The notes below the pieces were generated by a model. That model was not told the origin of the DNA. It worked only from the letters and a program-made list of their open reading frames with translations, and searched no databases. A stretch of 33,167 nucleotides of DNA from a virus, in IMG/VR virus record IMGVR_UViG_3300025162_000015, positions 1 to 33,167 of that record; one strand, 5' to 3'. A program made the translations under genes and the position numbers. Shown piece by piece: positions 1,001 to 31,988 of this stretch (its first letter is position 1; every line of letters begins with the position of its first letter).

Positions 1001-1031
1001 GTATAAAATTGTCTAGCACGTTACTTATAAT
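1001..1031 (+). promoter_or_regulatory. Late-type promoter P1
   Basis: GTATAAAAT at 1001-1009, then 16 bp, then TATAAT at 1026-1031. The -10 box ends 7 nt before the protease ATG at 1039, so the mRNA is predicted to start at or next to the start codon. The same layout with identical spacing occurs at 3335, 8302, 10173, 11896 and 15875. Confidence 0.65.
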
Positions 1032-1038
1032 TACTTAA

Positions 1039-1926
1039 ATGGATATAACCAAAGAAACAAAAATATACAAAAACTTCGATGCTGAAACAAAGGCTGTAGA
1101 TGACACAAGTAAAAGAACATTTATTGTTCGTATTTCAACACCAGCAGTAGACAGGTCGGGTGATGTAGTAATGCCTTTGGGCATGGACGCTACAAACTTT
1201 ATGAAGAACCCTGTTGTTTTATTTGCACACGATTATTCTGAATTACCTATTGCCAGATGCATTGACCTACAAGCGGACGATACTGGTGTACTGGCTACTG
1301 TTGAATTTATGCCAGAGGGTACATACGACAAATCCGATTTGGTTTATAACATGATTAAGTTGGGTTTTATGAACGCATGGTCAATTGGGTTTATGCCAAA
1401 GACATGGACTGAAAACGAAACAGGTTATATATACAATACATGGGAGATATATGAATTTAGTGCCGTACCAGTACCAGCCAATCAAGAAGCGTTAACAATT
1501 ATGCGTAGTAAAGGAATTGATACCGCTTTGCTTGAAGTAAAAGAAGTTGAAGAAGTCAAAAAAGAACCTTATACAGTCGACGAAGTGAACGAAACAGAGG
1601 AAAAAGATTTAAACCTTGATGGAAAAGTTGAGATGTCAGTTGCACAATATTTAGAATTGAAACAAGAACTTATTGAAGCTAAATCAGGCAGGACAATATC
1701 TGCTAAGCATGAGGATTTATTAAAAAATGCATGTGACCAAATGGGTGGTGCTATTGGTTGTATCAAAGGGGTGTTGGATACTGTTGCCGAAACTGCTGAA
1801 CCAACAAAAAGTGCTGAAATGACACCATCGTTACTTGAAAGACTATCCAAACAATTAAAAGGTACTGATAAATCAGTAGGACTTACATTACGTTTATTAA
1901 AAGAGATTGAACAACGAAACAAGTAA
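1039..1926 (+). CDS. HK97-family prohead maturation protease with extended C-terminus
   Basis: A 295-residue protein. Residues ~25-155 match the HK97 prohead protease (peptidase family U35): the catalytic His is probably H64 in FAHD, the Ser S115 in NAWSIGF, followed by the conserved WEIYEFSAVPVPAN segment near 135-148. It would cleave the N-terminal delta segment of the capsid protein and the scaffold during head maturation. The tail from ~160 is highly charged and probably coiled, longer than a minimal protease, and may act as the scaffold since no separate scaffold gene is seen. It sits between the portal fusion and the major capsid gene, the usual order. The ATG follows promoter P1 with no Shine-Dalgarno, consistent with leaderless translation. 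Confidence 0.88.
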   Translation: MDITKETKIYKNFDAETKAVDDTSKRTFIVRISTPAVDRSGDVVMPLGMDATNFMKNPVVLFAHDYSELPIARCIDLQADDTGVLATVEFMPEGTYDKSDLVYNMIKLGFMNAWSIGFMPKTWTENETGYIYNTWEIYEFSAVPVPANQEALTIMRSKGIDTALLEVKEVEEVKKEPYTVDEVNETEEKDLNLDGKVEMSVAQYLELKQELIEAKSGRTISAKHEDLLKNACDQMGGAIGCIKGVLDTVAETAEPTKSAEMTPSLLERLSKQLKGTDKSVGLTLRLLKEIEQRNK

Positions 1927-1962
1927 TAATTTTTTTGAAAGTAGGTGAATAAATACAAATAT

Positions 1963-3090
1963 ATGCAAGAAGATAAAAAAGAATTAGAAACAATAACAAA
2001 TGCGGTAACCGAGGAAGTTATTAAGCATTTTGAAGCCGAAAAGGCTGTCCGCAAAAACATTTTTGGTGGCGAAGATAAGGACATCAAGTCCGAAATTGAA
2101 GCTAAGAAAAAAGATGCAGCGGAATACTTGAAGGCACTCGCTAATAACGATAAGGCAACTACTAAAGCACTATCATCTGGTGGTTCTACAAGTGGTGCTG
2201 AATTAGTGCCAACCTACGTTTCCGACCAATTCATCACAGTAGCTCAAAAATATGGTTTAGTTAGACAATATGCAAACAAATGGCCTATGCAAGGTATAAA
2301 CGAAAATATACCAACCATTAGTAACATTACTTCGTATCGTTTAGCTTCCGACACAGCAGCCGTCACAGCTTCCGAGCCAACGACTGGTGCTTTACAATTG
2401 AGAGCCAAAACTGTTGGTGTAATTATCCCAGTTTCCAAAGTTTTGCTACAAAATAGTTCTATCGCATTGGTGGACGCAATCACCATGTTAGCTGGTAAAG
2501 CTATAGCAAAATTAGAAGATCAATGGGGTTTCTTAGGTTTGGGCGCAGGTGAGGGTATTTTCCAGACTGTTGGAGTTCCAACTGTCAATCTTGGTTCTGG
2601 TAACACAACTTACGCTAAGGTAACAGCAGAAGATCTATTGTCATTACAGGACGCAGTAGACGAGAATTTCTTCGGTGACAGAATGAGATGGATTATGTCC
2701 AGATCAATTTTGAACAACTTTAGAAAATTGAGAGCTAACGTCAGTACAGATAAACAGGGATTTTTGTTCGAAAACTTTGGTGGAACAATGCCCGGAACAA
2801 TGTGGGATATACCATTCGATACTTCGGCAGTAATGCCAAAGAATTCAGATAATTCACAAGCTGGTAAACCATTTATGGCACTTGTTGACTACGATAACTT
2901 AGTTCATGGTGATGCAATGCAATACACAATGGAGATAAGTGATCAAGCAACAATAACTGACACAGATGGACATACCTTAATCAACTTATTCCAACAGAAT
3001 ATGGTTGCTTTAAAGGTTTGGGGATTAGTTGATATCGAAGTCGCTAACCCAACAAAGGCACATGCGATTCTAGCAGCCGCAAATAGTTAA
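1963..3090 (+). CDS. Major capsid protein, HK97 fold
   Basis: About 375 residues from this ATG. The N-terminal ~65 residues are charged and helical, as expected for the delta/scaffold segment removed by the protease encoded just upstream. The body has the HK97 family plan: a segment around SGAELVPTYVSDQFI opening the shell domain, an E-loop region rich in T/A, then RMRWIMSRS (the typical W-x-M-x2-S before the spine helix) and a C-terminal VALKVWGLVDIEVANP strand. A GTG at 1945 in frame would add six residues; the ATG at 1963 is preferred only because it is ATG, as neither has a well-spaced ribosome site. A strong palindromic hairpin follows the stop. Confidence 0.9.
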   Translation: MQEDKKELETITNAVTEEVIKHFEAEKAVRKNIFGGEDKDIKSEIEAKKKDAAEYLKALANNDKATTKALSSGGSTSGAELVPTYVSDQFITVAQKYGLVRQYANKWPMQGINENIPTISNITSYRLASDTAAVTASEPTTGALQLRAKTVGVIIPVSKVLLQNSSIALVDAITMLAGKAIAKLEDQWGFLGLGAGEGIFQTVGVPTVNLGSGNTTYAKVTAEDLLSLQDAVDENFFGDRMRWIMSRSILNNFRKLRANVSTDKQGFLFENFGGTMPGTMWDIPFDTSAVMPKNSDNSQAGKPFMALVDYDNLVHGDAMQYTMEISDQATITDTDGHTLINLFQQNMVALKVWGLVDIEVANPTKAHAILAAANS

Positions 3091-3106
3091 TATTTGCTGA
3101 CTTACT

Positions 3107-3132
3107 CTAACCATTAGTCGACTAGTGGTTAG
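3107..3132 (+). other. Near-perfect palindrome / hairpin after the capsid gene
   Basis: Arms 3107-3117 and 3122-3132 pair over 11 bp around a TCGA loop, with a single wobble (U3114-G3125) that only pairs in the + strand transcript. It lies 17 nt after the major capsid stop and 10 nt before the next ATG. No T-tract follows, so a classical terminator is unlikely. An mRNA 3'-end stabiliser, a processing site or a dyad operator are all possible. Confidence 0.6.
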
Positions 3133-3141
3133 GTATAAGTT

Positions 3142-3333
3142 ATGAAATGTGTTGTTAATCATAATGGAATATGTAGCGGATACGCTTTTAAGATGGGCGT
3201 TGAAACTGATTTACCGATTGAAGTTATACACGCTATAGGTGTTCATAATGTGAAAATGCTGGAAGCACCTGTTAACGAGATGATAGACGAAGCACCAAAA
3301 GATAAGATGATTCGTAGGTCTGTTCGTAAATAA
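3142..3333 (+). CDS. Small hypothetical protein of the head module
   Basis: 63 residues with no recognised family. It begins with a short Cys-containing strand region (CVVNHNGICSG) followed by LPIEVIHAIGVHNVKMLEAP, a layout seen in many tiny phage proteins next to capsid genes that read as a small beta-rich domain with a final helix; the last ~15 residues are basic. It resembles in style the product at 10214, which also precedes a major structural gene. The start codon follows the palindrome at 3107-3132 with no clear ribosome site. Role unknown; a minor head protein is a guess from position. Confidence 0.5.
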   Translation: MKCVVNHNGICSGYAFKMGVETDLPIEVIHAIGVHNVKMLEAPVNEMIDEAPKDKMIRRSVRK

Positions 3334-3334
3334 T

Positions 3335-3365
3335 GTATAAAATTGATTCGCTAATACATTAAACT
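3335..3365 (+). promoter_or_regulatory. Late-type promoter P2
   Basis: GTATAAAAT at 3335-3343, 16 bp, then TAAACT at 3360-3365. Unlike the other copies it is followed by a real leader of about 25-30 nt containing TTAGAGGA before the ATG at 3398, which suggests that the gene at 3398 is made in large amounts. Confidence 0.65.
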
Positions 3366-3397
3366 TTATTTAGTAGTTAATTAGAGGAATTTATAAA

Positions 3398-3955
3398 ATG
3401 GCAGCAACGTTCGCATGGCTTGAAGATACAGGAACAGCAACAGGTTCACCAGCAAAGGGAACAACTAGGACTAATCCTGCAACAGACGCAAATTGGAAAA
3501 ATAGCGGTGTCGTAACAGACGCTTATTCTACTTATCCTATTACAGCAGGGCAGAATTCTTATCAAAAAGCATTATTTGGAAAGTTTACAACTGGAACATT
3601 TACAAACATTTTATCTGGGTTGTTTGCTCATACTTCAACTTCATTCGCTTCTAATTTGACTTTAAAAGGTGTTAAGGCAATGACAGCTGACGGTGATAGA
3701 TGGTTATATGTAACACCAGCAACAACTGCTGATTCTAACTTAACTACGGACATGACATCTGCAATTGCAATTGGTTCTGGTGTAGCGGTGTGGTTTGGTC
3801 CGACTGGTCCAGAAGCTACTGGCAAAGCGGCGACACAAGCAACAGGTGCAGACCAATATACAAATTATTTAACTACTCAATTACAAACTGCGGTTGGTGC
3901 TGCGGCAGGTGATACTGCTAATGTCACTTTGACCTTACAGTATTCGGAGAACTAA
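3398..3955 (+). CDS. Probable abundant virion protein (decoration or head-surface candidate)
   Basis: 185 residues, very rich in Ala, Thr, Gly and Ser and almost free of charge clusters, as seen in capsid decoration or tube-like structural proteins. No family is recognised. It has its own late-type promoter (3335-3365) and one of the few good Shine-Dalgarno sequences in the late region (TTAGAGGA, about 10 nt before the ATG), so high expression is inferred. It directly follows the capsid gene and a 63-residue ORF. The alternative is a minor tail protein. The N-terminus is not a signal peptide and no membrane segment is visible. Confidence 0.5.
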   Translation: MAATFAWLEDTGTATGSPAKGTTRTNPATDANWKNSGVVTDAYSTYPITAGQNSYQKALFGKFTTGTFTNILSGLFAHTSTSFASNLTLKGVKAMTADGDRWLYVTPATTADSNLTTDMTSAIAIGSGVAVWFGPTGPEATGKAATQATGADQYTNYLTTQLQTAVGAAAGDTANVTLTLQYSEN

Positions 3956-3957
3956 AT

Positions 3958-4200
3958 ATGGCAGATATTAAAAAAATTATATTTTGTGCAAATGAACAAG
4001 TAGAAACAGAACACGTTTTAAGTGTTTCACCTAGTGGCGAGATAATAGCCACATGTTCTGTATGCGGTAGATTCTTAAAATTCCCAGCTGGCGTTACTAG
4101 AGCCGAATTTGATATGCAGGTTGCTGAACATAAAACATCAAACGAGGGGCAAGTTTCCGTTGAGGAAATGGAAAAGAATTTGTCCGAACTTGGTGATTAA
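3958..4200 (+). CDS. Small zinc-ribbon-like protein
   Basis: 80 residues. A CSVCGRFLKFP motif in the middle, with a single upstream Cys (residue ~9), His ~18 and a His near residue 59, gives a plausible zinc-binding site of the ribbon type. It starts 2 nt after the previous stop (TAAATATG) so translation is probably coupled. The C-terminal 25 residues are acidic. Function unknown; position in the structural cluster suggests a virion or assembly factor. Confidence 0.5.
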   Translation: MADIKKIIFCANEQVETEHVLSVSPSGEIIATCSVCGRFLKFPAGVTRAEFDMQVAEHKTSNEGQVSVEEMEKNLSELGD

Positions 4201-4230
4201 TTGCTAATTCAATAGCAGAAAGGCAATACA

Positions 4231-4638
4231 ATGCAGTATAAACTCAAATACCTACTCACAGTAGAAACTGCCGACAAGGTTATTAAACAAACTTCCGACG
4301 ACATTTCAACAACTGGTGGCGGTTCTTTTTATTACGATATTAAAGATTTAGTTATTACTAAAGCAACTTTATCTGGAAAAGGTAAGGTAATTTCAATTGA
4401 TTTGACCGATGGCGATATTGAAATAAACGGGGTCACAGTTTTGTCACCATACGACATTCCACCACAAACACAGTTACGACTCATCTATTACAGAAAAGTG
4501 CAACAGAGGACCAGTTTTAACGTAAATAGTGGTGTATTTGGTAAGCGTTACGACCTTGAACCTCTAGTAAGGTATTTTATAGGTTTCCAGTATCTATTTA
4601 GAGGTCACAATTACGAGTGGCAGATTGGGGTTGAGTAA
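4231..4638 (+). CDS. Hypothetical structural-region protein
   Basis: 135 residues, predicted mainly beta (alternating hydrophobic strands such as VISIDLTDGDIEINGVTVL) with an aromatic, basic C-terminal third (YLFRGHNYEWQIGVE). No family recognised. An AGAAAGG Shine-Dalgarno lies about 7 nt before the ATG. The stop overlaps the start of the next gene (TAATG). It may belong to the tail-surface protein cluster that follows. Confidence 0.5.
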   Translation: MQYKLKYLLTVETADKVIKQTSDDISTTGGGSFYYDIKDLVITKATLSGKGKVISIDLTDGDIEINGVTVLSPYDIPPQTQLRLIYYRKVQQRTSFNVNSGVFGKRYDLEPLVRYFIGFQYLFRGHNYEWQIGVE

Positions 4639-4907
4639 TGCCTATAATGACACAGCAATCACAGCAAGACATTGTTACAGGTACAACAGCGTTATTTGCA
4701 AAATATGGTATTGATATTACAAGTCTTGGAGATATGTATTCACAGTTCTGGGGTGAATATTTTAGTTATATTCAAACACTAACAAAACAAGAGGGAACGG
4801 ACTTACTTACAAAACTTAAGGTGAATAATCCAGTTGCGTATACAGTAATTAAGAATAGTAAGTTGTTTACTACAATTTACGATGATGTATTTACAAAGTT
4901 AGGATAG
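4638..4907 (+). CDS. Hypothetical protein before the large tail-surface protein
   Basis: 89 residues, mainly helical and amphipathic with many aromatic residues (MYSQFWGEYFSYIQ). No known domain, no transmembrane segment. The start overlaps the previous stop by one base (TAATG) and its end is 3 nt from the next ATG, so the three genes 4231-8300 look co-translated. It could be a chaperone or attachment partner for the repeat protein downstream; that is inference only. Confidence 0.45.
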   Translation: MPIMTQQSQQDIVTGTTALFAKYGIDITSLGDMYSQFWGEYFSYIQTLTKQEGTDLLTKLKVNNPVAYTVIKNSKLFTTIYDDVFTKLG

Positions 4908-4910
4908 CAG

Positions 4911-7900
4911 ATGGCATTTCCTACTGGATTTATACGACTTGGAAAAATTACACTACTTGCCAGTAAAGTATCGGGCGGTGCTAACTTAACTAATTTTCCA
5001 GTTCTACTAAAAGACGCTAATTTCTCCGCTAACATGTATCTGTCAATGGATAATGGCGGCGGTGACTTACGTTTTTCGTCTGATATTGCTGGTACAACAC
5101 AGTTAGCGTGTGAGGTGGTTTCGTTTGACACAGTAAATTCAAAAGCAGAGGTTTACGTTAAAATACCAACGCTTTCATATACTACAAACACTATTATCTA
5201 TGTTTGGGGCGGTGCTGGTGGTACTACGCAACCGTCGGTAACAGACACGTATGGGCGTAACGCCGTTTGGACACAATACAAGGCGGTTTATCACTTTCAG
5301 TCATCTGGTACAGATTCTACTGGTTATTGTGATGTTACTGGCACGAACTCGCCTACTTATGCAGCGGGTCAGTTAGGCAATTGTGCAGTTTTAGATGGTT
5401 CTACACAAGGATTTGAAAACGAAACCGCTAATATAATGCGACCTGACGTTAACAGTCCGTTTTTTTGGGAATGTTGGGTCAAGAATTTAACAGGCTCGTA
5501 TTCAACTATCTGGGAAACTGGATATGAGGGTACAAACCCAAACATGGACGGACAATATGTTTGTCAGGCTATTAATGCCCTAAAGGTTGTATCTAATACC
5601 CGTAATGACGCATGGATAAGTTCTACTAATGCGGTAACGTCTAATACGTGGACACATGTGGTGGGTGCTTTTAACGGTTCATCTACAATCTCATTTCTAA
5701 AAAGTGGTGCTGCAAACGGTACACCAGCAGAAAATTCAATAAGTTCACAACTAACGACTCGCGGTATCCATATAGGATATTATGGCGGTTCTGGTTCTAA
5801 TAGTTATGTTAATGGAAATTTTTTTAGTGGCTCGATGGACGAGTTGCGTATTTCCTATAACAATCTTGGGGTAGGTTGGGGAACAACACAATACAATAAT
5901 CAAAATGGACCAACAACATTCGCAACAACTGTCGATGAAATGACTACAGTAGCTAAAGCGACAGCGGGTTCGGCATCTTGGGTTTGTCCTGTTGGTGTCA
6001 CGACATTACTGGTTAAACTTTGGGCAGGTGGCGGTGCTGGTGGTTCTGTAGCTTCTGCGATTGGCGGTGGCGGTGGCGGTGCTGGTGGACAGTTTGTAAA
6101 AAAGACAATCGCTGTAACTGCTGGAACTTCCTACAGTTATGTAGTCGCTGCAACTAAGGCTGGAACTGCTGGTGCTAATGGCGGTGCAGGTAATGACTCG
6201 ACTTTTAACTCTACAAGCGTTGTTGCAAAGGGTGGTGCTGGCGGTTTGTCTTTTGCTAATGGTGGAACTGGCGGTGCTGGTTCAACTGCAAACGCTGTAG
6301 CAGATTTAGTTATACGAGGTGGAAACGGTGGAAGTTCTACAGGAAGCACAAGTTCTGGTGGTGGCGGTGGTGGTGCTGGTTCTGCAACACAGGGCGGTGA
6401 TACTACAAACAATGTGGCAGGAATTGCTGGTACAAAGTCAGGCGGTGCTGGTGGTGCTGGACGTACAACAACGAGTGCTGGCAACGCAGGTACAGGTTGT
6501 GGCGGTGCTGGTGGTGGTGCGTTATGTACAACAGTCACGTCTACCACAGGTGGTACCGGTGCTATTGGTAGATCGGAACTTATTTTTACAACACCAACAA
6601 TAAGTGCTTTAAAAGATAATTTCGACGATAATTCAATTGATTCTAAACTTTGGACATCTGCAAATACTGCTGAAACGGGTGGACAACTTGTAGTAACGAC
6701 CGACGCTACGGCTACTTATTATGGTGCTGTATCTGTAAATTATTTCGACCTAACTGAATCTAATATATTGGTGCAATTGACTGACGCAGGTGATCAAACT
6801 ATTGCAAGCAGAAATACAGTTTTTCAATTAGTTAAGGACGCTTCAAATTCGATAGCAATATCTGTTGAGGGTGGTGCAATAATGGCAACTAAGATTGTTG
6901 CTAGCACTTGGGCGATGGTAGGTTCTTCGCAGTCTTACGTTCCTGCTACACATCAATGGTTAAGAATTAGAGAAACTGCTGGAACAGTCTATTTTGATTA
7001 TTCGGCAGATGGAATTAATTGGAATAACTTGGCTTCTGTTGCCGCACCTTTTGTCGTTTCCGCATTACAGGTTGAACTATACGCAGGGTGTGACGCTGTT
7101 AGTCAGACTGTAGATACATCATCATTCGACAATCTGAATTACCCACCAACACAACAAACGATAACAGGTAAGGGTAAGTTGGTCGCTGTTACTACAAAAA
7201 CTCTGACTGGTTTATCTCGCATCACAATATCGACACTTAAAACAATTACAGGTATAGCAAAAATAAACACACAAGCGTCAACAACTAAAACAATAACTGG
7301 TTTGGCGAGAGTTCAAGTATCAACATCTAGAACCTTGACGGGTCTATCGCGTATAACTGCAAATGCTGCTAAGGCAGTAACAGGTAAAGCGAAAGTTACA
7401 GTCGCAACTCTAAAAACTATAACTGGTGAATCTAAATTAACTGTTGCAACAACTAAAACAATAACTGGTTTAGCGAGAGTTCAAGTCCTATCAAGTAAGG
7501 GTATTGGTGGAATTTCACGAATTCAAATAATAACACAACAAGCGTTGCAAGGTGTGGCAAAATTGACGGTATCGAATGTGGCTACGTTACAAGGAAAAGC
7601 ACGCGTTACAATTTTAACATTAAAGAATATATCTGGAATATCACGGGTTCAAGAAGTTTCTGTCAAAACGATAATGGGTGTGGCAAAAGTACAAAATGCG
7701 GTGGTTTCTACTGCAAAAACCATACAAGGTTTAGCACGAATTACTGTATCGAGTATCCAGTCTATTGTTGGTAGTGCAAAGATAACTGTATCCAATAATA
7801 GTTCAATATTTGGAAAATCTAACATCTTAAAAGTTCAATTCCAGTTCTTACAGGGTAGGGCAAAAATAACTGCTGTTAATTTAAAAAATATATCTGGAAA

Positions 7901-8300
7901 AGCTACTTTAATTTTAAGAAATACACAAGATATACTAGGTATCGCTAAGATACAGAAAAGTGCAACAGCGACCATTCTAGGACGTTCCAGAGTACAACAA
8001 ATCGTAGCTAAGACATTACACGGAATTTCAAAAGTTACTGCAAAAACACTTCAAACGATCACGGGAAAAGCCAATTTGTATATTTTTGGAATACAAAATA
8101 TCGTTGGTGTTTCCCGTGTGTATGTACCTACCGAAAAATGTATATCAGGTAAGGCTAAAATCAGGGCGGCGTATGGAATGTCTTTTATTAAGTCAGAACC
8201 TACAACATCAACAGGGGATACAAATGACGCTTTGTCTGGACTTACTGAATCAGGCGGTACAACTGGCAACAGCAACGGTGAACCCTATTATGTGTCTTAA
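4911..8300 (+). CDS. Large multi-domain surface/receptor-binding protein (DUF2341-LamG-Gly-rich-14-residue repeats)
   Basis: 1129 residues, the largest single uninterrupted gene here. In order: a DUF2341-like domain (~8-105, with the LTNFPVLLKD signature), a LamG/concanavalin-like jelly roll (~115-320, ending in MDELRISYNN), a glycine-rich domain (~345-555, beginning WVCPVGVTTLLVKLWAGGG), a second jelly-roll-like domain (~565-745, DNFDDNSID start), 24 short repeats (~748-1085) and a Ser/Thr-rich tail. LamG and DUF2341 domains bind glycans; the Gly-rich module resembles known tail-fibre domains. A role in host or matrix binding is inferred. It sits in the head module, before the connectors, so it might decorate the capsid instead of the tail. 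AGGA precedes the ATG. Confidence 0.7.
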   Translation: MAFPTGFIRLGKITLLASKVSGGANLTNFPVLLKDANFSANMYLSMDNGGGDLRFSSDIAGTTQLACEVVSFDTVNSKAEVYVKIPTLSYTTNTIIYVWGGAGGTTQPSVTDTYGRNAVWTQYKAVYHFQSSGTDSTGYCDVTGTNSPTYAAGQLGNCAVLDGSTQGFENETANIMRPDVNSPFFWECWVKNLTGSYSTIWETGYEGTNPNMDGQYVCQAINALKVVSNTRNDAWISSTNAVTSNTWTHVVGAFNGSSTISFLKSGAANGTPAENSISSQLTTRGIHIGYYGGSGSNSYVNGNFFSGSMDELRISYNNLGVGWGTTQYNNQNGPTTFATTVDEMTTVAKATAGSASWVCPVGVTTLLVKLWAGGGAGGSVASAIGGGGGGAGGQFVKKTIAVTAGTSYSYVVAATKAGTAGANGGAGNDSTFNSTSVVAKGGAGGLSFANGGTGGAGSTANAVADLVIRGGNGGSSTGSTSSGGGGGGAGSATQGGDTTNNVAGIAGTKSGGAGGAGRTTTSAGNAGTGCGGAGGGALCTTVTSTTGGTGAIGRSELIFTTPTISALKDNFDDNSIDSKLWTSANTAETGGQLVVTTDATATYYGAVSVNYFDLTESNILVQLTDAGDQTIASRNTVFQLVKDASNSIAISVEGGAIMATKIVASTWAMVGSSQSYVPATHQWLRIRETAGTVYFDYSADGINWNNLASVAAPFVVSALQVELYAGCDAVSQTVDTSSFDNLNYPPTQQTITGKGKLVAVTTKTLTGLSRITISTLKTITGIAKINTQASTTKTITGLARVQVSTSRTLTGLSRITANAAKAVTGKAKVTVATLKTITGESKLTVATTKTITGLARVQVLSSKGIGGISRIQIITQQALQGVAKLTVSNVATLQGKARVTILTLKNISGISRVQEVSVKTIMGVAKVQNAVVSTAKTIQGLARITVSSIQSIVGSAKITVSNNSSIFGKSNILKVQFQFLQGRAKITAVNLKNISGKATLILRNTQDILGIAKIQKSATATILGRSRVQQIVAKTLHGISKVTAKTLQTITGKANLYIFGIQNIVGVSRVYVPTEKCISGKAKIRAAYGMSFIKSEPTTSTGDTNDALSGLTESGGTTGNSNGEPYYVS
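7153..8175 (+). repeat. 24 tandem 14-residue protein repeats (TITGxAKI type)
   Basis: The coding sequence encodes about 24 units of 14 residues with consensus [TN]-I-x-G-x-[AS]-[KR]-[IV]-x5-[KQ]; two units are stretched to 16 and 17. The regular G and K/R positions suggest a beta-solenoid or rod. Units at 7279-7318 and 7447-7486 share 39 of 40 bases and are exactly 168 bp (four units) apart, which points to a recent internal duplication or gene conversion. Confidence 0.85.
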
Positions 8301-8301
8301 T

Positions 8302-8332
8302 GTATAAAATACGGACTGATTTTCACTAATAT
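8302..8332 (+). promoter_or_regulatory. Late-type promoter P3
   Basis: GTATAAAAT at 8302-8310, 16 bp, TAATAT at 8327-8332, then 8 nt to the ATG at 8341. It begins right after the stop of the repeat protein gene and would drive the connector genes from an essentially leaderless message. Confidence 0.65.
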
Positions 8333-8340
8333 AAATATAT

Positions 8341-8976: not shown

Positions 8977-8977
8977 A

Positions 8978-9295
8978 ATGCGATTACCAATAACAGACAC
9001 AGTAGACATTTACCATCAAAAACGTACTGTAAATACAGAAGCGTATGAGGTGATACCAACGTATTCCAATATTAATGCTTGTATTTCACCTACTGGAACG
9101 GATATACAGACTTCTGGTGATGTACCAGCCTTTCAGGCTTTTGAAATTTATTTATATGATGTGACTTTGAATATTGCTAGCGGTGACAAACTTATTACTT
9201 ATAAGGGTACGAAGTATTTAGTTAGTGGAATTCCGTATGTGGTTAATAATACTTATATGCGCTATATAAGATTGTTGGCACATCAGATTTTTTAA
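8978..9295 (+). CDS. Head closure (head-tail joining) protein
   Basis: 105 residues from the ATG in TTTTAAAATG, 1 nt after the previous stop; longer starts would lie inside the connector gene. The opening DTVDIYHQKR and the beta-rich body with GDKLITYKGTKYLVSG resemble the small SPP1 gp16/HK97-type head-tail joining family. It would bind the connector ring and plug the channel. The stop touches the next start (TTTTTTAAATG). Confidence 0.65.
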   Translation: MRLPITDTVDIYHQKRTVNTEAYEVIPTYSNINACISPTGTDIQTSGDVPAFQAFEIYLYDVTLNIASGDKLITYKGTKYLVSGIPYVVNNTYMRYIRLLAHQIF

Positions 9296-9730
9296 ATGTT
9301 TGATATTACTTTAGAGGGCGCAGATAAGTTGATAAGTAACATTGCTAATGTTTCTAACATTATTCGTGATGAAATGAAAAAAGCCATGACAGCGTGTGCA
9401 GTTGATGCTGAAAGATTTGCAAGGGCGCAAGCACCTCACGATACTGGCGCACTACGTTCCGCCATACACTACGAACCAGCAGTTGTGACCTCTAATAATG
9501 TTATTTCAAAGGTTGGTGTTAACAGAGCAATTAAATATGCTAGGGCGCAAGAGTTCGGAACGCAGGGAATGGTTATACACAGTCACAGTTCTAAGGGCAA
9601 ACAATTTACTTATATTGGGAATATTAGACCGAAATGGTATATGCGTGACGCTAAAATAAAAGTCCAACCCATTATTAAAGCACGCGTTACACAGGCTGGT
9701 AGGAATATTGTGAAAGGACTTGCTAAATGA
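9296..9730 (+). CDS. HK97 gp10-like neck/tail-completion protein
   Basis: 144 residues. The central APHDTGALRSAIHYE followed by YARAQEFGTQG is the signature of the HK97 gp10 family, a tail-completion or neck protein. N-terminal helix rich in Lys/Ala. The end overlaps the next gene by four bases (ATGA), so translation is coupled. No separate Shine-Dalgarno. Confidence 0.8.
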   Translation: MFDITLEGADKLISNIANVSNIIRDEMKKAMTACAVDAERFARAQAPHDTGALRSAIHYEPAVVTSNNVISKVGVNRAIKYARAQEFGTQGMVIHSHSSKGKQFTYIGNIRPKWYMRDAKIKVQPIIKARVTQAGRNIVKGLAK

Positions 9731-10167
9731 GTTACGGATATAAAAGCATTAAAGATCAAATAGTTGCAGTTTTATCTGGTGTCACATCACTTAAACATGT
9801 GTATTCAAAAGACCCAAAATCAGTTGAACAGTATCCGTCCGCTGGTGTATTTGCAATGGGTCATACTGGTAGATTTGATTCGATGGGTTTAAGTGGAACA
9901 AATGAACGTGTCGTACAGCACGTTATACGCCTGTATTTTAGAACCGATGAAACAAATGACCCTGACTACGAAGATGTGTTGGAAACTGTAGCCGATGACG
10001 TTTTAAAGGCATTGGAAGCTAACGTAACTTTAAATGGCAGTTGTGAATATTCTCTACCGACAACAGGCAATTGGTCTTATGGACAAAAAGAAACGCCAGT
10101 AAGAATATTCGATATCGTTCAGACTTCTACATTGCATTTAAGACGCGACACAGGTGAATTGATTTAG
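9727..10167 (+). CDS. Tail terminator-like protein
   Basis: 146 residues, alpha/beta, with an N-terminal helix (YKSIKDQIVAVLSGV), a middle VIRLYFRTDE strand and a helix DVLETVADDVLKALE, the arrangement of minor tail/terminator proteins (gpU or gp17-like) found at this place between gp10-like and tail tube genes. It would cap the tail tube and set its join to the head. Family assignment rests on position plus fold pattern and is not certain. Confidence 0.6.
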   Translation: MSYGYKSIKDQIVAVLSGVTSLKHVYSKDPKSVEQYPSAGVFAMGHTGRFDSMGLSGTNERVVQHVIRLYFRTDETNDPDYEDVLETVADDVLKALEANVTLNGSCEYSLPTTGNWSYGQKETPVRIFDIVQTSTLHLRRDTGELI

Positions 10168-10172
10168 AAAAT

Positions 10173-10203
10173 GTATAAATAAGGTATTTTTGTTCGTTAT
10201 ACT
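10173..10203 (+). promoter_or_regulatory. Late-type promoter P4
   Basis: GTATAAATA at 10173-10181, 16 bp, TATACT at 10198-10203, then 10 nt to the ATG at 10214. One mismatch in the distal box compared with P1-P3. Confidence 0.6.
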
Positions 10204-10213
10204 TTATTCAGAT

Positions 10214-10375
10214 ATGAAATACAGATACACAGGACAAACAGAAGTCTATTTACCAGTACAAAAAGTGTTGGTTGAGCCAAACGATGTTGTTGAGGTAACA
10301 GAACCTATATTTAATATGGAATTTGAGTTAGTTGAGGAAGTAAAACCCAGTAAAAAATTGAAAGTCGAGGAATAA
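10214..10375 (+). CDS. Small hypothetical protein before the tail tube gene
   Basis: 53 residues from the ATG at 10214. An in-frame TTG at 10190 lies between the promoter boxes of P4, so the ATG is preferred. The sequence (MKYRYTGQTEVYLP ... VEPNDVVEVTEPI) looks like a small beta domain of the type that often accompanies tail or capsid genes, with an acidic then lysine-rich end. The role is unknown. It is followed after 2 nt by the tail tube gene. Confidence 0.5.
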   Translation: MKYRYTGQTEVYLPVQKVLVEPNDVVEVTEPIFNMEFELVEEVKPSKKLKVEE

Positions 10376-10377
10376 AC

Positions 10378-11328
10378 ATGTCGGCAGGAATTCAGTCAGT
10401 AGTATCTTTTATAAAAGAAGCATCTTGGGGTGTAGCGTTAACACCAACTAAATCATTACCAGTTAAATCAGGTGGTGGAATTGAAGTCAAGAAAAATGTA
10501 AAAATGCAGTCGGCTATAAAAGGTCAGTTGCAAAAGAATTACGCACAAATTGCTGGTCTTACGACTTTAGATGGTTCTTACACTTTTGACGCTTTCGCCG
10601 ATTACTTGGGTTATTTTTTATTATCTGCTTTAGGAACTGATACACCTGCTTTAAAAGGTGGAGAAACTATCGTATATGACCATGTATTTACAGAAACAGC
10701 ACCAAAGACATCGTTAACAGTTGAGCAAGCACAGGGCGAGAATGTTCAGAGATATGCTGGAACAATCTGCAACGAATTAAAATTTGTTGGCAAGGTTGAT
10801 GAAATGTTAGAAGTGACGGCAAATTGTGTAGCCAAAACATACGCAACAGCTACAGCAATAACCCCAGCATTTTCAACAGTACCAGCGTTTAATTGGTCAC
10901 AGTTAGCGGTCAAAATTGGTGGTGCTTCAATTGGTGAAGTTGAGTCTTTCGAATTGAATTATAAGAATGGTGCTGAAATGGTTGGCTCATTAAACGGGGT
11001 CTTAACACCATCATATACAACAATTAAAAGTGGTTCAGAAGTATCTGGAAAACTTGTAATGTATCTTGATGCAACAGCACTTACTAGATTTACAAACTAT
11101 CTAGCCAATACAACCGAAGCATTGGAAATTATCGCAACAGGTGGTTCGATTGGTAGTGCGTCTACATATAAATTAGATATAACAGTACCAGTAGCGGTTT
11201 ACACAACTGGTGTAACTAAGATAACCGATGATCATAATCTTTTAGAAGTAGATTTTGAAGGCATTTACGACGTGTCCACATCTAAAATGATTGGTGTTAC
11301 ATTAACAAATCTTGTAACCGCATATTAA
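10378..11328 (+). CDS. Major tail (tube) protein
   Basis: 316 residues. The N-terminal IKEASWGVALTPT, the GSYTFDAFADYLGYFLLSALG segment and repeated beta strands match large phage tail tube proteins, in which a ring of hexamers stacks to form the tail. It lies directly before the frameshifting chaperone pair and the tape measure, the invariant order in siphoviruses. The start follows the previous stop by two bases (TAAACATG). Confidence 0.8.
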   Translation: MSAGIQSVVSFIKEASWGVALTPTKSLPVKSGGGIEVKKNVKMQSAIKGQLQKNYAQIAGLTTLDGSYTFDAFADYLGYFLLSALGTDTPALKGGETIVYDHVFTETAPKTSLTVEQAQGENVQRYAGTICNELKFVGKVDEMLEVTANCVAKTYATATAITPAFSTVPAFNWSQLAVKIGGASIGEVESFELNYKNGAEMVGSLNGVLTPSYTTIKSGSEVSGKLVMYLDATALTRFTNYLANTTEALEIIATGGSIGSASTYKLDITVPVAVYTTGVTKITDDHNLLEVDFEGIYDVSTSKMIGVTLTNLVTAY

Positions 11329-11350
11329 TATTTTACACTAGCGGTATAAT
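11320..11350 (+). promoter_or_regulatory. Weak late-type promoter P5 with consensus -10
   Basis: TATAAT at 11345-11350 ends 6 nt before the ATG at 11357. At the conserved distance upstream (11320-11328) is GCATATTAA, only a partial match to GTATAAAAT, and it overlaps the end of the tail tube gene. A leaderless start for the chaperone gene is likely; use of the late -35 element is less sure. Confidence 0.45.
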
Positions 11351-11356
11351 GTAAAT

Positions 11357-11692
11357 ATGATTAATTTTAAAGAATTCACAACTACGAATGGTTATAAATA
11401 TTGTTTGGCTAATTATCTGACGTATGACCAGTTCATGGCTATGCAAGAACTCGTTACACGTGACCAAATAGCAGGTCAAGACGTACAGATTACAGGTTCT
11501 AAGGCACTTGCAGTCAATAAACTAGTTTTGACTTTTCTACTCTTATCCTTAAAAGATTCTAGTGATGTTGAAGTGGTACGCGAAGCCGATTCGTTGCCAA
11601 TACCTGCTGTTGATGGTGCTGACATTATGGCCGAAGTTAGTAAGATAACAAACGAAGCTTCCGAAGCATTTACAAAAAAAAAGGGGATTTAA
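11357..11692 (+). CDS. Tail assembly chaperone, short form (G-like)
   Basis: 111 residues. It sits between tail tube and tape measure and ends in a run of lysine codons with a slippery site, as lambda gpG-type chaperones do. These proteins bind the tape measure and recruit tube subunits, and are absent from the finished virion. Most ribosomes would terminate at the TAA 11690-11692 and give this form. No Shine-Dalgarno; ATG 6 nt after a TATAAT box. Confidence 0.75.
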   Translation: MINFKEFTTTNGYKYCLANYLTYDQFMAMQELVTRDQIAGQDVQITGSKALAVNKLVLTFLLLSLKDSSDVEVVREADSLPIPAVDGADIMAEVSKITNEASEAFTKKKGI

Positions 11693-11889
11693 TCGAATTT
11701 GAAATATTTAGAGCATTTCACGACGAAATTTCTATCCGTTCTACTGACTCGAACCTATCTACAGTCCACGTTTGCGCTTCATTAAACATTACTTATACCG
11801 AGTTGATGCAACAACCTGCATGGTGGGTTGCGTATTACATGTCATATCTTTCAGGCAAAACTAAAGCCGAGAAGTCCAAAAACAAGTAG
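11357..11889 (+). CDS. Tail assembly chaperone, -1 frameshift fusion (GT-like)
   Basis: A shift of -1 at the in-phase A AAA AAG heptamer (11677-11683) joins the short chaperone to an open frame that runs to TAG at 11887-11889, adding 68 residues (total about 177). The added part has a dense aromatic segment (QQPAWWVAYYMSYLSG) and a lysine-rich end. The downstream frame has no plausible start of its own after 11690 that would include its conserved-looking N-terminal part, and without the frameshift the 200-bp gap before the tape measure would be empty. The GT form is the one that contacts both tape measure and tube in lambda. Confidence 0.8.
11677..11683 (+). other. Programmed -1 ribosomal frameshift site A AAA AAG
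   Basis: Zero-frame codons are ACA AAA AAA AAG GGG ATT TAA. The heptamer A AAA AAG is in the phase required for tandem tRNA slippage, lies 6 nt before the zero-frame stop, and sits in a run of nine A followed by four G. I see no strong downstream stem; polymerase slippage on the A run is an alternative route to the same product. Confidence 0.8.
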
Positions 11890-11895
11890 ATTATT

Positions 11896-11926
11896 ATATA
11901 AAAAAATGGCGTGGTTGCCATAATAT
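11896..11926 (+). promoter_or_regulatory. Late-type promoter P6
   Basis: ATATAAAAA at 11896-11904, 16 bp, TAATAT at 11921-11926, then 6 nt to the tape-measure ATG at 11933. Distal box matches GTATAAAAT at 7 of 9 bases with exactly the same spacing. A small ATGGC/GCCAT hairpin lies between the boxes. Confidence 0.5.
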
Positions 11927-11932
11927 TAATGT

Positions 11933-13753
11933 ATGGGCGAAGATAGCGTTTTAAATATTATCCTAAAAGCAAAAGACGAAGCCAGTAAAACTATTGAGGG
12001 CGTTTCTGGTAGTTTGGAAAAAGCAAAAACCAACGTAACCAATCTGTCGGAATCATTCAAAATCGCTGGCGGTATCATTACGGGAATTGGTGTGGCTGGT
12101 ATTGGCGTGTTGGGTATGCTTGCTAAAAGTGCAGCAGAAGAACAAAAAGCACAGGCAAATATCGGTGCTACTTTAGACGTTGTTGCTAGTAAGTCAAAAA
12201 TTTCAATTGATAAATTAAGGGATTCCGTTGATAAGGCTTCCGATTCTTATTTGAAATTAGGCTTTGATAATACCGAAACAAGTTTGGCAATGGCGCAAGC
12301 ATTAAGAATGACTAATAATGTTACAGATGCGCAGGCTATGTTGGCTGCATCTAGCGATTATGCACGTAAGAAAGGTATATCGCTGTCGGATTCTGTCGAA
12401 ACGATGTCGAAAGCATATACGGGTATGCTTAAATCAACAAAAGACTTGGGTATTGAATTGCCTAAAGGTGCTAAGGGTATGCAAGCGATAATTGCAATTG
12501 GGGAAGCTACAGCAGGACAGGCTGACGCTTATTCACATACGTTTGCTGGTGCTATGGAAACTGTTAATGCTGAGGTTGGCAAGTTTAAGGAAACTTTAGG
12601 TGCTAGATTGTTGCCAACAATTACAGATATTATAACTAAAGTTGCAGATTTTACTGACAAGTTAAATAAATTATCACCAGCAACATACGATACGATTGTT
12701 AAAGTGTTGTTATTTGGGACTGCATTTTCACTTGTTGTTGGTCCATTACTTATTTTTATTAGCATGATACCCGCTTTAACTGCTGGATTTACCGCGATAT
12801 CTGGCGTTGCATTGCCTGTTGTTGCGATACTTGCATTGGTTGCTCTTGCTGGTTATGAAATATATACAAATTGGGACAAAATATCGCCAATATTTAATCA
12901 AGTAAAAGACGCTGTTATTGCATTTATTCCTACACTTATTAGTCTTTGGGACAATATTAAAATGCAAGCCGTTGGTGTGTTTAACGCGTTATCTTTATTT
13001 GTAAAAAACATGGTTGCTAAATTTAAAGAATTCTACGATAACAACAAAGCAACTTTTGATGCTATGGCTATAGTTTTAAAAATAACATTTGATTATCTCG
13101 TTGCTACAGCAAAACAATTTTGGAATAACATAGTGTTCGTGTTTAACATATTCGCACCAATAATCACTTCCGTTTGGAAAGGTATGTGGACAGGCATTGT
13201 TGATGTGTTAAAAGGTGTATGGGAAACGATAAAAGGTTTAATCACTATTGGTTGGGGTGCTGTTACAGTTGTCACCAATTTCTTTTTAGGTGTGTTGACT
13301 GGTGATTGGGATACAGCGTGGAAAGGTATGTCAGATGGCTTGGCTATTGTTTGGACGGGCATTGCTAATGTTGTAATAGGCATGACTAATGCAATAACAG
13401 GAATAATCGAGGGGTTTTTAAATGGAATTATTGGCATGATTAATGCACTACTTTCGGAAGTTGATAAAGCTGCACAAGCGTTAGGTCAAAAGGCAAATAA
13501 ATTTCAGATAGGCAACATTTCAATTCCACGTGCCACTATGGATTCGTTTGGTGTTTCTTCTAGTGCGAACATGTCTAAAGTTTCCGACAATAACGCCGTA
13601 AAGAAAAACACGTCATCTGTATCTACTAATTACAACCCAACAACTTCGGCAACAAGTACGCCAGTCAATGTTTACGTCGATAAAGTTACTTCGGATATGG
13701 ATTTAACAAATCTTGGGTACAAAATTGGTTTTGCAGTAAGGAACGCTAATTAA
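11933..13753 (+). CDS. Tail tape measure protein
   Basis: 606 residues. The N-terminal ~230 residues are helical with Ala/Lys/Ser-rich heptads (KAKDEASKTIEGVSGSLEKAK), followed by several strongly hydrophobic segments (about 260-310 and 420-510) and a polar C-terminus. This pattern, plus its place after the chaperone pair, identifies the tape measure that sets tail length and helps DNA entry through the membrane. By the usual ~1.5 A per residue it would give a tail of roughly 90 nm. No lytic peptidase or transglycosylase domain is visible inside it, which may matter given the separate transglycosylase at 22643. Confidence 0.9.
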   Translation: MGEDSVLNIILKAKDEASKTIEGVSGSLEKAKTNVTNLSESFKIAGGIITGIGVAGIGVLGMLAKSAAEEQKAQANIGATLDVVASKSKISIDKLRDSVDKASDSYLKLGFDNTETSLAMAQALRMTNNVTDAQAMLAASSDYARKKGISLSDSVETMSKAYTGMLKSTKDLGIELPKGAKGMQAIIAIGEATAGQADAYSHTFAGAMETVNAEVGKFKETLGARLLPTITDIITKVADFTDKLNKLSPATYDTIVKVLLFGTAFSLVVGPLLIFISMIPALTAGFTAISGVALPVVAILALVALAGYEIYTNWDKISPIFNQVKDAVIAFIPTLISLWDNIKMQAVGVFNALSLFVKNMVAKFKEFYDNNKATFDAMAIVLKITFDYLVATAKQFWNNIVFVFNIFAPIITSVWKGMWTGIVDVLKGVWETIKGLITIGWGAVTVVTNFFLGVLTGDWDTAWKGMSDGLAIVWTGIANVVIGMTNAITGIIEGFLNGIIGMINALLSEVDKAAQALGQKANKFQIGNISIPRATMDSFGVSSSANMSKVSDNNAVKKNTSSVSTNYNPTTSATSTPVNVYVDKVTSDMDLTNLGYKIGFAVRNAN

Positions 13754-14586
13754 TGATTACCCAAATTACTTTAGGCGGTTACGCCTTAACAACAAATCAA
13801 GTATTTTTAAACGCTATCCGCAATGGCTCGTTCCCTGCCACAGTTTACACAAAATCAAAACGTGGTGGTTATCAAGGTTCAAAACTTGTAACGCCTACGT
13901 TTGCTAGTTATTCGCTTGTTATGGAATTTACAATTGTTGGACAATCTTTTTCTGATTTAACCACGCAGCGATTTAACTTTTTTGAAATATTAGGTCTTAT
14001 CCATTCGGTAGGTTCTGAAACTTTAATTATTACAAGGTCAAATGGTGTTGGAGTACAGACAGATATCAAAGCGGTGTCCGTTACTGGCGACTTAACCAAA
14101 GATGATGGACTGTCTTGCAACGTGCAAGTGACATTGGAAACTGAATATCCGTTTTTAGTTGGCACATCGGCTTATTCAGATCAAGTATTAATCAATAATG
14201 GTGGTGGTTTTGCTATACCTTTTGCTATACCTTTTGCAATGAACGTCAACCAATCGCAAGCTGTAACAGTTACGAATTTAGGTAATTATTCTGCATTTCC
14301 TATTTTTACATTTACAGGTCCGCTAACTAATCCTAGTATCGGCAATAACACTACTGGAAAAACTTTATCTGTTGCGTACACGTTAACCGACTTGTCTAAA
14401 ACACTAACAGTTGATTGTTATAACCGAACCGCTGTATTTCAAGATGGAAATAATGCCCGACAATATGTTTCTGGTGATTTTTGGACAATTCCTTTTGGTA
14501 CGTCTACAGTTACACTTGGAAATTCAAATGGTACTGATAGTGGAAACTGCACCGTAGTGTATAGAGATACATTTTTAAACATTTAA
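13753..14586 (+). CDS. Distal tail protein (Dit-like)
   Basis: 277 residues. The N-terminal domain with the SFPATVYTKSKRGGYQGSKL region and the following VMEFTIVGQSFSDL pattern matches siphovirus Dit proteins, which form the hexameric hub at the tail tip; the C-terminal half is a galectin-like beta domain. A short tandem repeat (FAIPFAIPFAM, 12-bp units at about 14210-14241) sits at the domain boundary. The start overlaps the tape-measure stop (TTAATG). Confidence 0.75.
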   Translation: MITQITLGGYALTTNQVFLNAIRNGSFPATVYTKSKRGGYQGSKLVTPTFASYSLVMEFTIVGQSFSDLTTQRFNFFEILGLIHSVGSETLIITRSNGVGVQTDIKAVSVTGDLTKDDGLSCNVQVTLETEYPFLVGTSAYSDQVLINNGGGFAIPFAIPFAMNVNQSQAVTVTNLGNYSAFPIFTFTGPLTNPSIGNNTTGKTLSVAYTLTDLSKTLTVDCYNRTAVFQDGNNARQYVSGDFWTIPFGTSTVTLGNSNGTDSGNCTVVYRDTFLNI

Positions 14587-14587
14587 A

Positions 14588-15637
14588 ATGATACAGGTAT
14601 TAATTAAAAATACATTGACTGGTGATATTTACGAAGTGCCTTTTACTTCAATTAATTATGTTGAAGAATTAAATAATGGCAGGTCTGGTACGATTGATTT
14701 TGACTACATGGCAATTAAAGCTATTGCTAGTATTTACAAGAAAACTGTCACAGATTTATTTACGGCAGTATTGACTGAAATATCTATATTACTTGATGGC
14801 ACTATTATTTTTGTCGGTGTAGTTTCTGAATACAGACGTAGCCTTGATGCTTCTGGTAATTACTCACTAACCGTCGCGGTTGTTGATTATTTTGCGTTAC
14901 TTCAAAAGCGTAGAACTGGATCGACAACTATTACGTTTACTGCAACTGACCCTGCAACAATTCCGTGGTCACTTATTCATGCGTCACAAATATTAAATGC
15001 TTACTCTGATTTGGGTATTACACAAGGCGTGGCACAAACTACTGCCACAACTGTAACCATTGATTACAAAAATGCTGAAATAAAACAAGAAATTGTTAAT
15101 CTTTCAAACGCCAATGCAAATAATTCTTTTGACATTGACATTGATAACACTAAGAAACTAAACGTGTACGTGCCATACAAAGGAACTCTAAGACCTGAAA
15201 TAATTTTAGACGTGAGCAATATTATTACTCAATCCGTTGATATACCGCTTGTTCTTAATATGACTAACTCGGTATTTTACACAGGTCAAGGGATTAATAA
15301 CGACATTGCTATTGCTACAGCGCAGTCACCCAATTCGGTAATGAGTGCATACAAATTGTTGGAAGATGTTGTAAGTAATTCGACAGTTTCTGATTCTACT
15401 TTACTGGCTTCACTTGCGTTACGTTACCTAATGAATAATCAAGCGCCATTATTACAGGTCACACTTTCGCATTTTAGTGACACGTTAAAGATTACAAATT
15501 ATGACGTGGGCGATTTTTTAATTATAAATATCCCAGAGGAAAATATCTCAAATGGTCAGTACAGAGTTAGGCGAAGAACAGTTAGTATCGATTCTGCTGG
15601 AACAATAACAGCCGAATTGTACATGCTGATTTTTTAA
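14588..15637 (+). CDS. Tail hub / baseplate protein (Tal-like)
   Basis: 349 residues. Its position after Dit and its beta-rich start with a charged turn (INYVEELNNGRSGTIDFDY) fit the N-terminal hub domain of tail-associated proteins; residues ~300-349 (YDVGDFLIINIPEENISNGQYRVRRRTVSID) fit the closing barrel of gp27-like hubs. It has no C-terminal lysin or fibre extension, so it is a short hub. It would close the tube and hold the fibre proteins encoded next. Confidence 0.65.
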   Translation: MIQVLIKNTLTGDIYEVPFTSINYVEELNNGRSGTIDFDYMAIKAIASIYKKTVTDLFTAVLTEISILLDGTIIFVGVVSEYRRSLDASGNYSLTVAVVDYFALLQKRRTGSTTITFTATDPATIPWSLIHASQILNAYSDLGITQGVAQTTATTVTIDYKNAEIKQEIVNLSNANANNSFDIDIDNTKKLNVYVPYKGTLRPEIILDVSNIITQSVDIPLVLNMTNSVFYTGQGINNDIAIATAQSPNSVMSAYKLLEDVVSNSTVSDSTLLASLALRYLMNNQAPLLQVTLSHFSDTLKITNYDVGDFLIINIPEENISNGQYRVRRRTVSIDSAGTITAELYMLIF

Positions 15638-15639
15638 AT

Positions 15640-15873
15640 ATGGAAGAAATAAAAAAACTTTTCAAAAATATATTTTATAGACTTGAGGTGTTAGAACGCG
15701 GACTTGTTATCAAGAAGATTACAATTCCGTCTGACACGTCTGGTTTTCTTATCATTAAACGCGTCACAACCGACCCAGTTGCGCCTATCGATGGCGAGAT
15801 GTGGATTAATACTACTTCTAAACAATTAAAGTGGCGTAACGGTGCTACAACGCAATATGTCGCTTTTTCTTAA
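15640..15873 (+). CDS. Short tail fibre / tip connector
   Basis: 77 residues: an N-terminal helix likely to form a short coiled coil (MEEIKKLFKNIFYRLEVLERGL), then a small domain with PIDGEMWINTTSKQLKWRNG, a motif repeatedly found at the ends of phage tail-fibre proteins. It probably trimerises on the hub and presents or anchors the fibres. Start 2 nt after the previous stop. Confidence 0.55.
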   Translation: MEEIKKLFKNIFYRLEVLERGLVIKKITIPSDTSGFLIIKRVTTDPVAPIDGEMWINTTSKQLKWRNGATTQYVAFS

Positions 15874-15874
15874 T

Positions 15875-15905
15875 GTATAAAATTATTAGGGTTTTTCGTT
15901 AAACT
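15875..15905 (+). promoter_or_regulatory. Late-type promoter P7
   Basis: GTATAAAAT at 15875-15883, 16 bp, TAAACT at 15900-15905, then 8 nt to the ATG at 15914. Best match to P2 (identical boxes). It would give a separate message for fibre and lysis genes. Confidence 0.65.
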
Positions 15906-19708: not shown

Positions 19709-19737
19709 TTTACAAAAACTGGAAAGTAGTTTATAGT
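19709..19737 (+). promoter_or_regulatory. Early promoter of the replication operon
   Basis: TTTACA at 19709-19714, 17 bp, TATAGT at 19732-19737. The predicted start (about 19744) is exactly where the 5' arm of the leader RNA stem begins. A TTTACAA half-site overlaps the -35, as in the palindromes at 21186 and 22329. Confidence 0.7.
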
Positions 19738-21185: not shown

Positions 21186-21214
21186 TTTACAAGTTTTGTA
21201 ATAGGTGTTATATT
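21186..21214 (+). promoter_or_regulatory. Early promoter with palindromic operator over the -35
   Basis: TTTACA at 21186-21191, 17 bp, TATATT at 21209-21214. The palindrome TTACAA-GTT-TTGTAA (21187-21201) covers the -35. The promoter at 22329 has the same palindrome in the same register. Confidence 0.7.
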
Positions 21215-22328: not shown

Positions 22329-22357
22329 TTGACAAGACTTGTTAAGTATGTTATATT
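22329..22357 (+). promoter_or_regulatory. Strong early promoter with palindromic operator
   Basis: TTGACA at 22329-22334, 17 bp, TATATT at 22352-22357. The quasi-palindrome 22329-22345 (core ACAAGACTTGT) overlaps the -35 in the same register as at 21186. Predicted start near 22364, giving a ~25-nt leader with TTGAAAGG. Confidence 0.8.
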
Positions 22358-24040: not shown

Positions 24041-24062
24041 CAAACCGTGTTTGGTTGTCTGG

Positions 24063-24149: not shown

Positions 24150-24154
24150 TAAAG

Positions 24155-31983: not shown

Positions 31984-31988
31984 AAAAT

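Follow-up and report, generated by a model that had tools for sequence, protein, structure and literature searches.

The RinA, ArpU and Ltr regulators of Gram-positive siphophages are small proteins of ~130 amino acids that switch on the late genes and whose own genes lie immediately upstream of those for terminase (PMC13123087). In Thermus phage P23-45, the middle and late promoters are extended -10 promoters, which are spared when Gp39 blocks region 4 of σ (PMC7403470). Xpf is listed with both region 2 and region 4 of σ, and in the SigO-RsoA system of Bacillus subtilis two small proteins share the functions of a σ factor (both PMC10141391). Here we describe, in the virus contig IMGVR_UViG_3300025162_000015, all 33,167 nucleotides (nt) of which were analyzed and are referred to as the window, what appears from sequence comparison to be a conserved class of phage late promoter, with a box in place of the usual -35 element. 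We also describe a phage gene, at 27840–28181, whose product may read that box.

Seven sites of a common layout precede structural genes

A sequence-only reading of the window had proposed that a distal box, GTATAAAAT, followed after 16 bp by a hexamer of the form TAWACT, stands in place of the -35 element before structural genes. Exactly four copies of GTATAAAAT occur in the window, all on the + strand (at 1001, 3335, 8302 and 15875; ~0.5 would be expected per strand), and 16 bp past them lie, in order, TATAAT, TAAACT, TAATAT and TAAACT, just as that reading had stated. Its site at 11896 is likewise present as described (ATATAAAAA-16-TAATAT), whereas the one at 10173 (GTATAAATA-16-TATACT) departs from GTATAAAAT by two changes and not by the single change that had been counted. 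A seventh site, ATATAAAAA-16-TAAAAT at 31978, lies ahead of the portal gene at 32021 and had been overlooked. The seven sites share a layout of (A/G)TATAA, exactly 19 nt, and TANNNT, usually with an ATG 6–12 nt on; in the following list, "matrix" refers to the relatives-only matrix introduced in the next section.

1001–1031, + strand: putative late promoter GTATAA-N19-TATAAT, 7 nt before the ATG (1039) of the head maturation protease gene; matrix match, and kept at the same gene in eight relatives
3335–3365, + strand: putative late promoter GTATAA-N19-TAAACT, before gene 3398, which has a 32-nt leader and an AGAGGA ribosome site; the homologous gene of relatives has the same promoter and is mostly leaderless
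8302–8332, + strand: putative late promoter GTATAA-N19-TAATAT, 8 nt before the ATG (8341) of the head-tail adaptor gene; matrix match and relatives
10173–10203, + strand: putative late promoter GTATAA-N19-TATACT, 10 nt before a small gene (10214) that lies ahead of the tail tube gene; matrix match and relatives
11896–11926, + strand: putative late promoter ATATAA-N19-TAATAT, 6 nt before the ATG (11933) of the tape measure gene; the tape measure gene of relative G002 also has ATATAA
15875–15905, + strand: putative late promoter GTATAA-N19-TAAACT, 8 nt before the ATG (15914) of the tail fibre gene; matrix match and relatives
31978–32008, + strand: putative late promoter ATATAA-N19-TAAAAT, 12 nt before the ATG (32021) of the portal gene; a GTATAA box and -10 element are present in 7/7 relatives with a readable portal start

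All seven sites lie in gaps before genes, with that at 31978 overlapping the 3' end of terL by 6 bases, stop codon included, and the gaps that hold them account for just a few per cent of the late module. None of the seven is among the TTGACA-like matches (0/7), and a TANNNT element is present at every one (7/7). At the sites at 8302, 15875, 3335 and 31978 the box begins at, or a few bases past, the preceding stop codon (e.g. TAATGTATAA), so that hardly any spacer separates the late genes. When up to three mismatches were allowed, the bare pattern showed no excess in the window (42 seen versus 42 expected). The window alone is therefore not decisive, and the case has to be made with relatives.

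The motif is conserved in related phages

A search with the major capsid protein yielded 13 loci, for which whole records were then fetched; isolated phages, searched at the DNA level, gave no match. The relatives have long stretches of the structural module in common with the window phage, at roughly 30–70% protein identity, and the conservation of the box among phages whose structural proteins have diverged this far bears out the proposal that it replaces the -35 element in the late class. We trained a matrix on 41 sites from the related phages only, leaving the window out, and scored it over both strands of the window. Its ranks 1–7 are exactly the seven sites, with scores of 17.8 to 6.9 (the next match scores 4.4), whereas order-2 shuffles of the window gave on average 1.4 matches at the seven-site score threshold. 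The six principal sites of the earlier inventory thus all fall within the top seven, although that inventory was incomplete without 31978; a weaker member that it had placed at 11320 lies outside the top 20 and was dropped.

At spacing 19, ten contigs (window included) contain 52 matches on the coding strand and none on the reverse strand, and the matches stand before the same genes in each relative; at the other spacings from 10 to 29, the same contigs give 0–5 matches each. The consensus comprises four A/T-rich bases, TGTATAA, G/A/C, 18 nt, TATAAT, T/A, A/G, A and ATG (wwwwTGTATAAg-N18-TATAAT-N6-ATG). The idea of a distal box at a fixed spacing therefore stands, but the core is TGTATAA, 18 bp from the -10 element, and the general -10 element is TATAAT rather than TAWACT: GTATAAAAT and TAWACT are the dialect of the window phage, and TATAAT dominates the -10 element in relatives. 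Upstream of the homologous genes of relatives, we found TGTATAA, 18 nt and TANAAT, with the ATG mostly 6–15 nt later; the genes concerned encode the portal protein, the protease, the homologues of 3398 and 10214, the head-tail adaptor, the tape measure protein (in G002) and the fibre.

The motif is held despite a GC content of 51% (G001) and 58% (L082), and the number of late promoters, seven in the window phage, is about 6–10 in the fuller relatives. The seventh base of the box differs non-randomly by phage, being A in 7/7 sites of the window, C in 6/6 sites of G001, and mostly G elsewhere, as would be the case if every phage carried a reader of its own; mutation bias could contribute. A collection-wide scan for the promoter returned 28 stretches, several of them from the same phages, and many of its AT-rich single matches look like chance. 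In that collection, contigs of up to 65.7 kb (L042, L050, L059 and L060) each carry one near-identical GTATAA-19-TATAAT-6-ATG site.

A gene encoding a helix-turn-helix protein accompanies the box

27840–28181, + strand: candidate late factor of 113 amino acids with a C-terminal σ-region-4/LuxR-like helix-turn-helix (HTH); proposed from its co-occurrence with the box and its family matches

In an all-against-all comparison this gene, alone among the non-structural ones, was found in all contigs spanning the locus. It lies ~2.4 kb before terL, in an order that is kept in relatives; G002, which seemingly lacks the gene, is a contig that starts just downstream of it, at the gene for a small partner protein. 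We collected 80 portal relatives, 40 of which reach >5 kb upstream: all four that contain the factor gene have boxes (2 to 5 each, L082 included), and none of the 36 that lack it does. A search for homologues of the factor that was blind to promoters returned five new contigs, all five with the promoter (at spacing 19, 10 matches forward and 0 reverse). A further homologue, on a contig in a Candidatus Shapirobacteria bin, also has the promoter.

Among the factor family, 10 of 11 members match PHROG σ-factor families. NCBIfam matches, all below cut-offs, are to σ70 for nine of the 11 and to the positive control σ-like factor (PRK06930) for six, and Pfam gives weak LuxR/GerE and Sigma70_r4 matches. 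The matches to σ models fall at the C-terminal HTH end, and there is neither a match to nor room for σ region 2. No MotA, AsiA, Ltr, RinA or ArpU model is among the Pfam, NCBIfam and PHROG results listed for the factor, which are of the σ/LuxR type and other HTH families, and no match to the 113-amino-acid protein was found among isolated phages. Q80, H83, Q84, R88 and R92, located within the recognition helix or after it, are invariant in the family. An AlphaFold model is confident in the HTH part only; this core superposes on region 4 of SigD and SigR (template modelling score of 0.76–0.87 on the target, E above 0.001), and no hit of the fold search, led by LuxR-type HTHs and σ region 4 domains, falls below E 0.001. 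The protein is a strong candidate for the reader of the box, to which it may bind.

Directly 5' of the factor gene, two relatives have a TTGAC-type promoter-like site and then an attenuator-like hairpin with a T-run (L065 5055–5142, in G001, and L017 about 5360–5450, in G006).

Structural-gene mRNAs are probably largely leaderless

For 71 sites in 18 contigs, the distance from the hexamer to the ATG peaks at 6 nt, and it is 5–11 nt for 54 of them. The corresponding window values are 6, 7, 8, 8, 10 and 12 nt, together with 32 nt for gene 3398. If transcription starts 7 nt past the hexamer, a peak at 6 nt puts the A of the ATG at +1, and we infer that the structural-gene mRNAs are largely leaderless or near-leaderless, a layout on which the sequence-only reading had not remarked. 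The arrangement TTGACA-16/18-TATAAT-5/8-ATG was found in 92 of 137 genomes of the class of bin G016 (the reversed control gave 3 matches), and leaderless promoters are therefore a normal style in that class. We also considered an archaeal-type TATA box, which GTATAAAAT resembles and with which apparently leaderless mRNAs would agree; this was ruled out by the rigidly spaced bacterial -10 element and the bacterial gene content (e.g. the DnaD-like loader).

Early promoters and late boxes occupy separate parts of the genome

The contig has identical 127-bp ends (bases 1–127 = 33041–33167), and most likely it is therefore a complete phage genome that closes into a circle of 33,040 bp. On the + strand, the genes run from portal (32021, across the join, to 996) through those for the head maturation protease, major capsid protein, head-tail connectors, tail tube, tape measure, Dit and fibre to the endolysin gene (18046). 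Early and middle genes follow, including those for a DnaD-like helicase loader, glycosyltransferases and the HTH protein at 27840; downstream of the HTH gene lie genes for an HNH protein, a ParB-like/methyltransferase protein and the presumed small terminase subunit, and then terL (30568–31983). σ70-type promoters located in gaps occur at 19.7–29.9 kb only, and the late boxes extend from 31978 across the join to 15875, with no overlap between the two. That the early promoters lack the box and have elements of the TTTACA or TTGACA type instead, as the sequence-only reading had held, is borne out at five sites.

19709–19737, + strand: early σ70-type promoter-like site TTTACA-17-TATAGT; consensus match only
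21186–21214, + strand: early σ70-type promoter-like site TTTACA-17-TATATT; consensus match only
22329–22357, + strand: putative early σ70-type promoter TTGACA-17-TATATT; consensus match only
25644–25671, + strand: putative early or middle σ70-type promoter TTGACT-16-TAGAAT, leaderless before glycosyltransferase gene 25678; the gene run includes the candidate factor
29855–29883, + strand: putative σ70-type promoter TTGACA-17-TATAAT, leaderless before gene 29890

Two further features were seen in the window. A run of nine A residues and GGGG at the end of gene 11357 is followed by a -1 frame to 11889 (11674–11889), with homology in G001 and G004, and is likely to mark a programmed frameshift of the tail assembly chaperone genes. 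Between genes 23651 and 24192, at about 24055–24150, there is a long inverted repeat (TATACCCTAAACGCCATG ... CATGGCGTTTAGGGTATA).

A model for late transcription and its alternatives

The best explanation of the findings as a whole, to which we assign a probability of roughly 0.65, is that the seven sites are late promoters at which a candidate phage protein resembling σ region 4 recruits the host RNA polymerase. With the -10 element at -12 to -7, TGTATAA would fall at about -38 to -32 (wwwwTGTATAAr at about -42 to -31), slightly upstream of a normal -35 element and at a distance that an ordinary σ region 4 would not favour. In the proposed scheme, host RNA polymerase with its housekeeping σ would use the TTGACA-type promoters at 19.7–29.9 kb early, and one early transcript would yield the 113-amino-acid protein. 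This protein, a stand-alone σ-region-4-like DNA-binding domain with an N-terminal tail, would bind the box as a monomer, replacing σ region 4 at a position 2–3 bp upstream of the normal -35, and would recruit the host holoenzyme, whose σ region 2 would read the -10 element. The structural genes would then be transcribed from several separate points, mostly as leaderless or near-leaderless mRNAs, which would accord with the leaderless promoters frequent in the probable host group.

Several points weigh against this explanation. Late expression of the box-driven genes is deduced from virion function; profile and fold comparisons match σ region 4 weakly, and they match LuxR/GerE HTHs as well; the phages are related, and the co-occurrence of gene and box is thus not a set of independent events; the host, as set out below, is assigned from few carrier genomes, and a bin can be wrong; and the small partner protein suggests a second player, though the window phage is without it.

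An unlikely alternative, and the one that survives best, is that another phage protein reads the box and that the HTH protein has some other role near the packaging genes, e.g. as a repressor or in connection with terminase. Such a role would fit a gene that adjoins the packaging genes and a product that is LuxR-like as well as σ-like, and the association of gene and box is seen within one phage lineage. However, no second non-structural gene is conserved in all of the box-bearing contigs that span the locus, and nearly the whole factor family (10/11) matches σ-factor families.

The identity of the host bears on another alternative. Three pointers indicate that the host probably belongs to the Patescibacteria: the factor-bearing phage contig in the Shapirobacteria bin, an integrated relative in the same phylum, and the leaderless promoter style. 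A first scan of bacterial genomes for the major capsid protein turned up no relative, and a capsid relative is present in only 1/374 and 2/380 sampled genomes. The integrated relative is a prophage with a related head-tail module at about 115–145 kb (L073, L074) of the 263-kb contig C8 of G530, a genome that shares its phylum with the Shapirobacteria bin/G016, and it has neither the factor gene nor the box. It seems improbable that a host alternative σ factor reads the box, with the phage bringing the promoters only. The -35 elements of some alternative σ factors are close to GTATA, and the spacing and layout are like those of a σ-dependent promoter. Yet 137 genomes of the probable host class show no excess of the box (11 matches versus 18 for the reversed pattern), which disfavours a host σ as the reader if the host call is right; the box also varies by phage, and G530, which belongs to the same phylum, has a box-less relative integrated. 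Together with the perfect co-occurrence of gene and box, the lack of enrichment lends circumstantial support to the earlier suggestion that a phage factor reads the element.

In most relatives, a protein of 55–80 amino acids with a conserved W, L, Y, P pattern is encoded directly 3' of the HTH gene. It is next to or fused with the factor in L062, L064, G001–G006, L067, L068, L070 and L082, the fusions being in L062 and L064, which implies that the two proteins act together; a Pfam scan of the partner gave no match to a known family. No recognisable copy is present in the window phage or in L063, and the absence from the window phage implies that the partner is not strictly required. We regard as very doubtful the view that the HTH protein and this partner form a split σ factor that fully replaces the host σ, with the partner helping at the -10 element: split σ factors do exist, as in SigO-RsoA (PMC10141391), and the adjacency and fusions would suit one, but the phages without a recognisable partner, and the ordinary TATAAT of the -10 element in relatives, argue against it. 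As a tentative conjecture, Patescibacteria phages might have a minimal two-part switch in which a region-4-only σ fragment and a small partner, sometimes fused, together steer the host polymerase towards leaderless late promoters that carry a -35 element of their own.

Chance AT-rich matches in intergenic gaps, for which only the chance-level count of the bare three-mismatch pattern in the window speaks, are refuted by the strand and spacing counts in ten contigs, and the conservation of position across relatives also argues against them.

Discussion

These findings provide a concrete promoter code that can be tested, together with a candidate factor, for late control in an uncultivated phage lineage, probably one of Patescibacteria. 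In metagenomic contigs, the motif serves as a marker by which late genes, the starts of genes and the factor can be located, and the system offers a probable case of largely leaderless expression of structural genes from many promoters, with a possible stand-alone region-4 fragment standing in for that of σ itself. Our literature searches returned nothing on the transcription programmes of this phage lineage (PMC13059738 contains neither of the words promoter and sigma), and the top results of a search for TGTATAA with phage promoter were unrelated.

The proposed mechanism follows the same logic as σ appropriation by MotA and AsiA of phage T4, with a box at a fixed distance from the -10 element and an activator that works with the host holoenzyme (PMC7403470). 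However, the T4 system serves middle genes through unrelated proteins and a different box, whereas the genes here are structural (late) ones and no AsiA-like protein was identified. MotA is not known to be a σ-region-4-like HTH protein. Like the RinA, ArpU and Ltr regulators, the candidate factor is a small DNA-binding protein encoded upstream of terminase; phage phi13 Ltr, however, acts at one promoter only (P23), where four direct repeats are its potential binding sites, whereas here a single, rigidly spaced box is found at many promoters. The PBSX prophage factor Xpf is similar in being a σ-like positive control factor encoded by a phage, and six of the 11 family members weakly match the model for such factors (PRK06930), but the protein here is only region-4-like and far below the cut-off of that model. 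Phage P23-45 likewise has a promoter class apart from the -10/-35 promoters of its host, although no replacement box is reported there. The HTH protein and its partner recall the SigO-RsoA pair, with the difference that the partner is without a Pfam match and is missing in the window phage. The late promoter class presented here, apparently undescribed so far, is in kind a variation on strategies already known from phages, in which the -35 contact is replaced.

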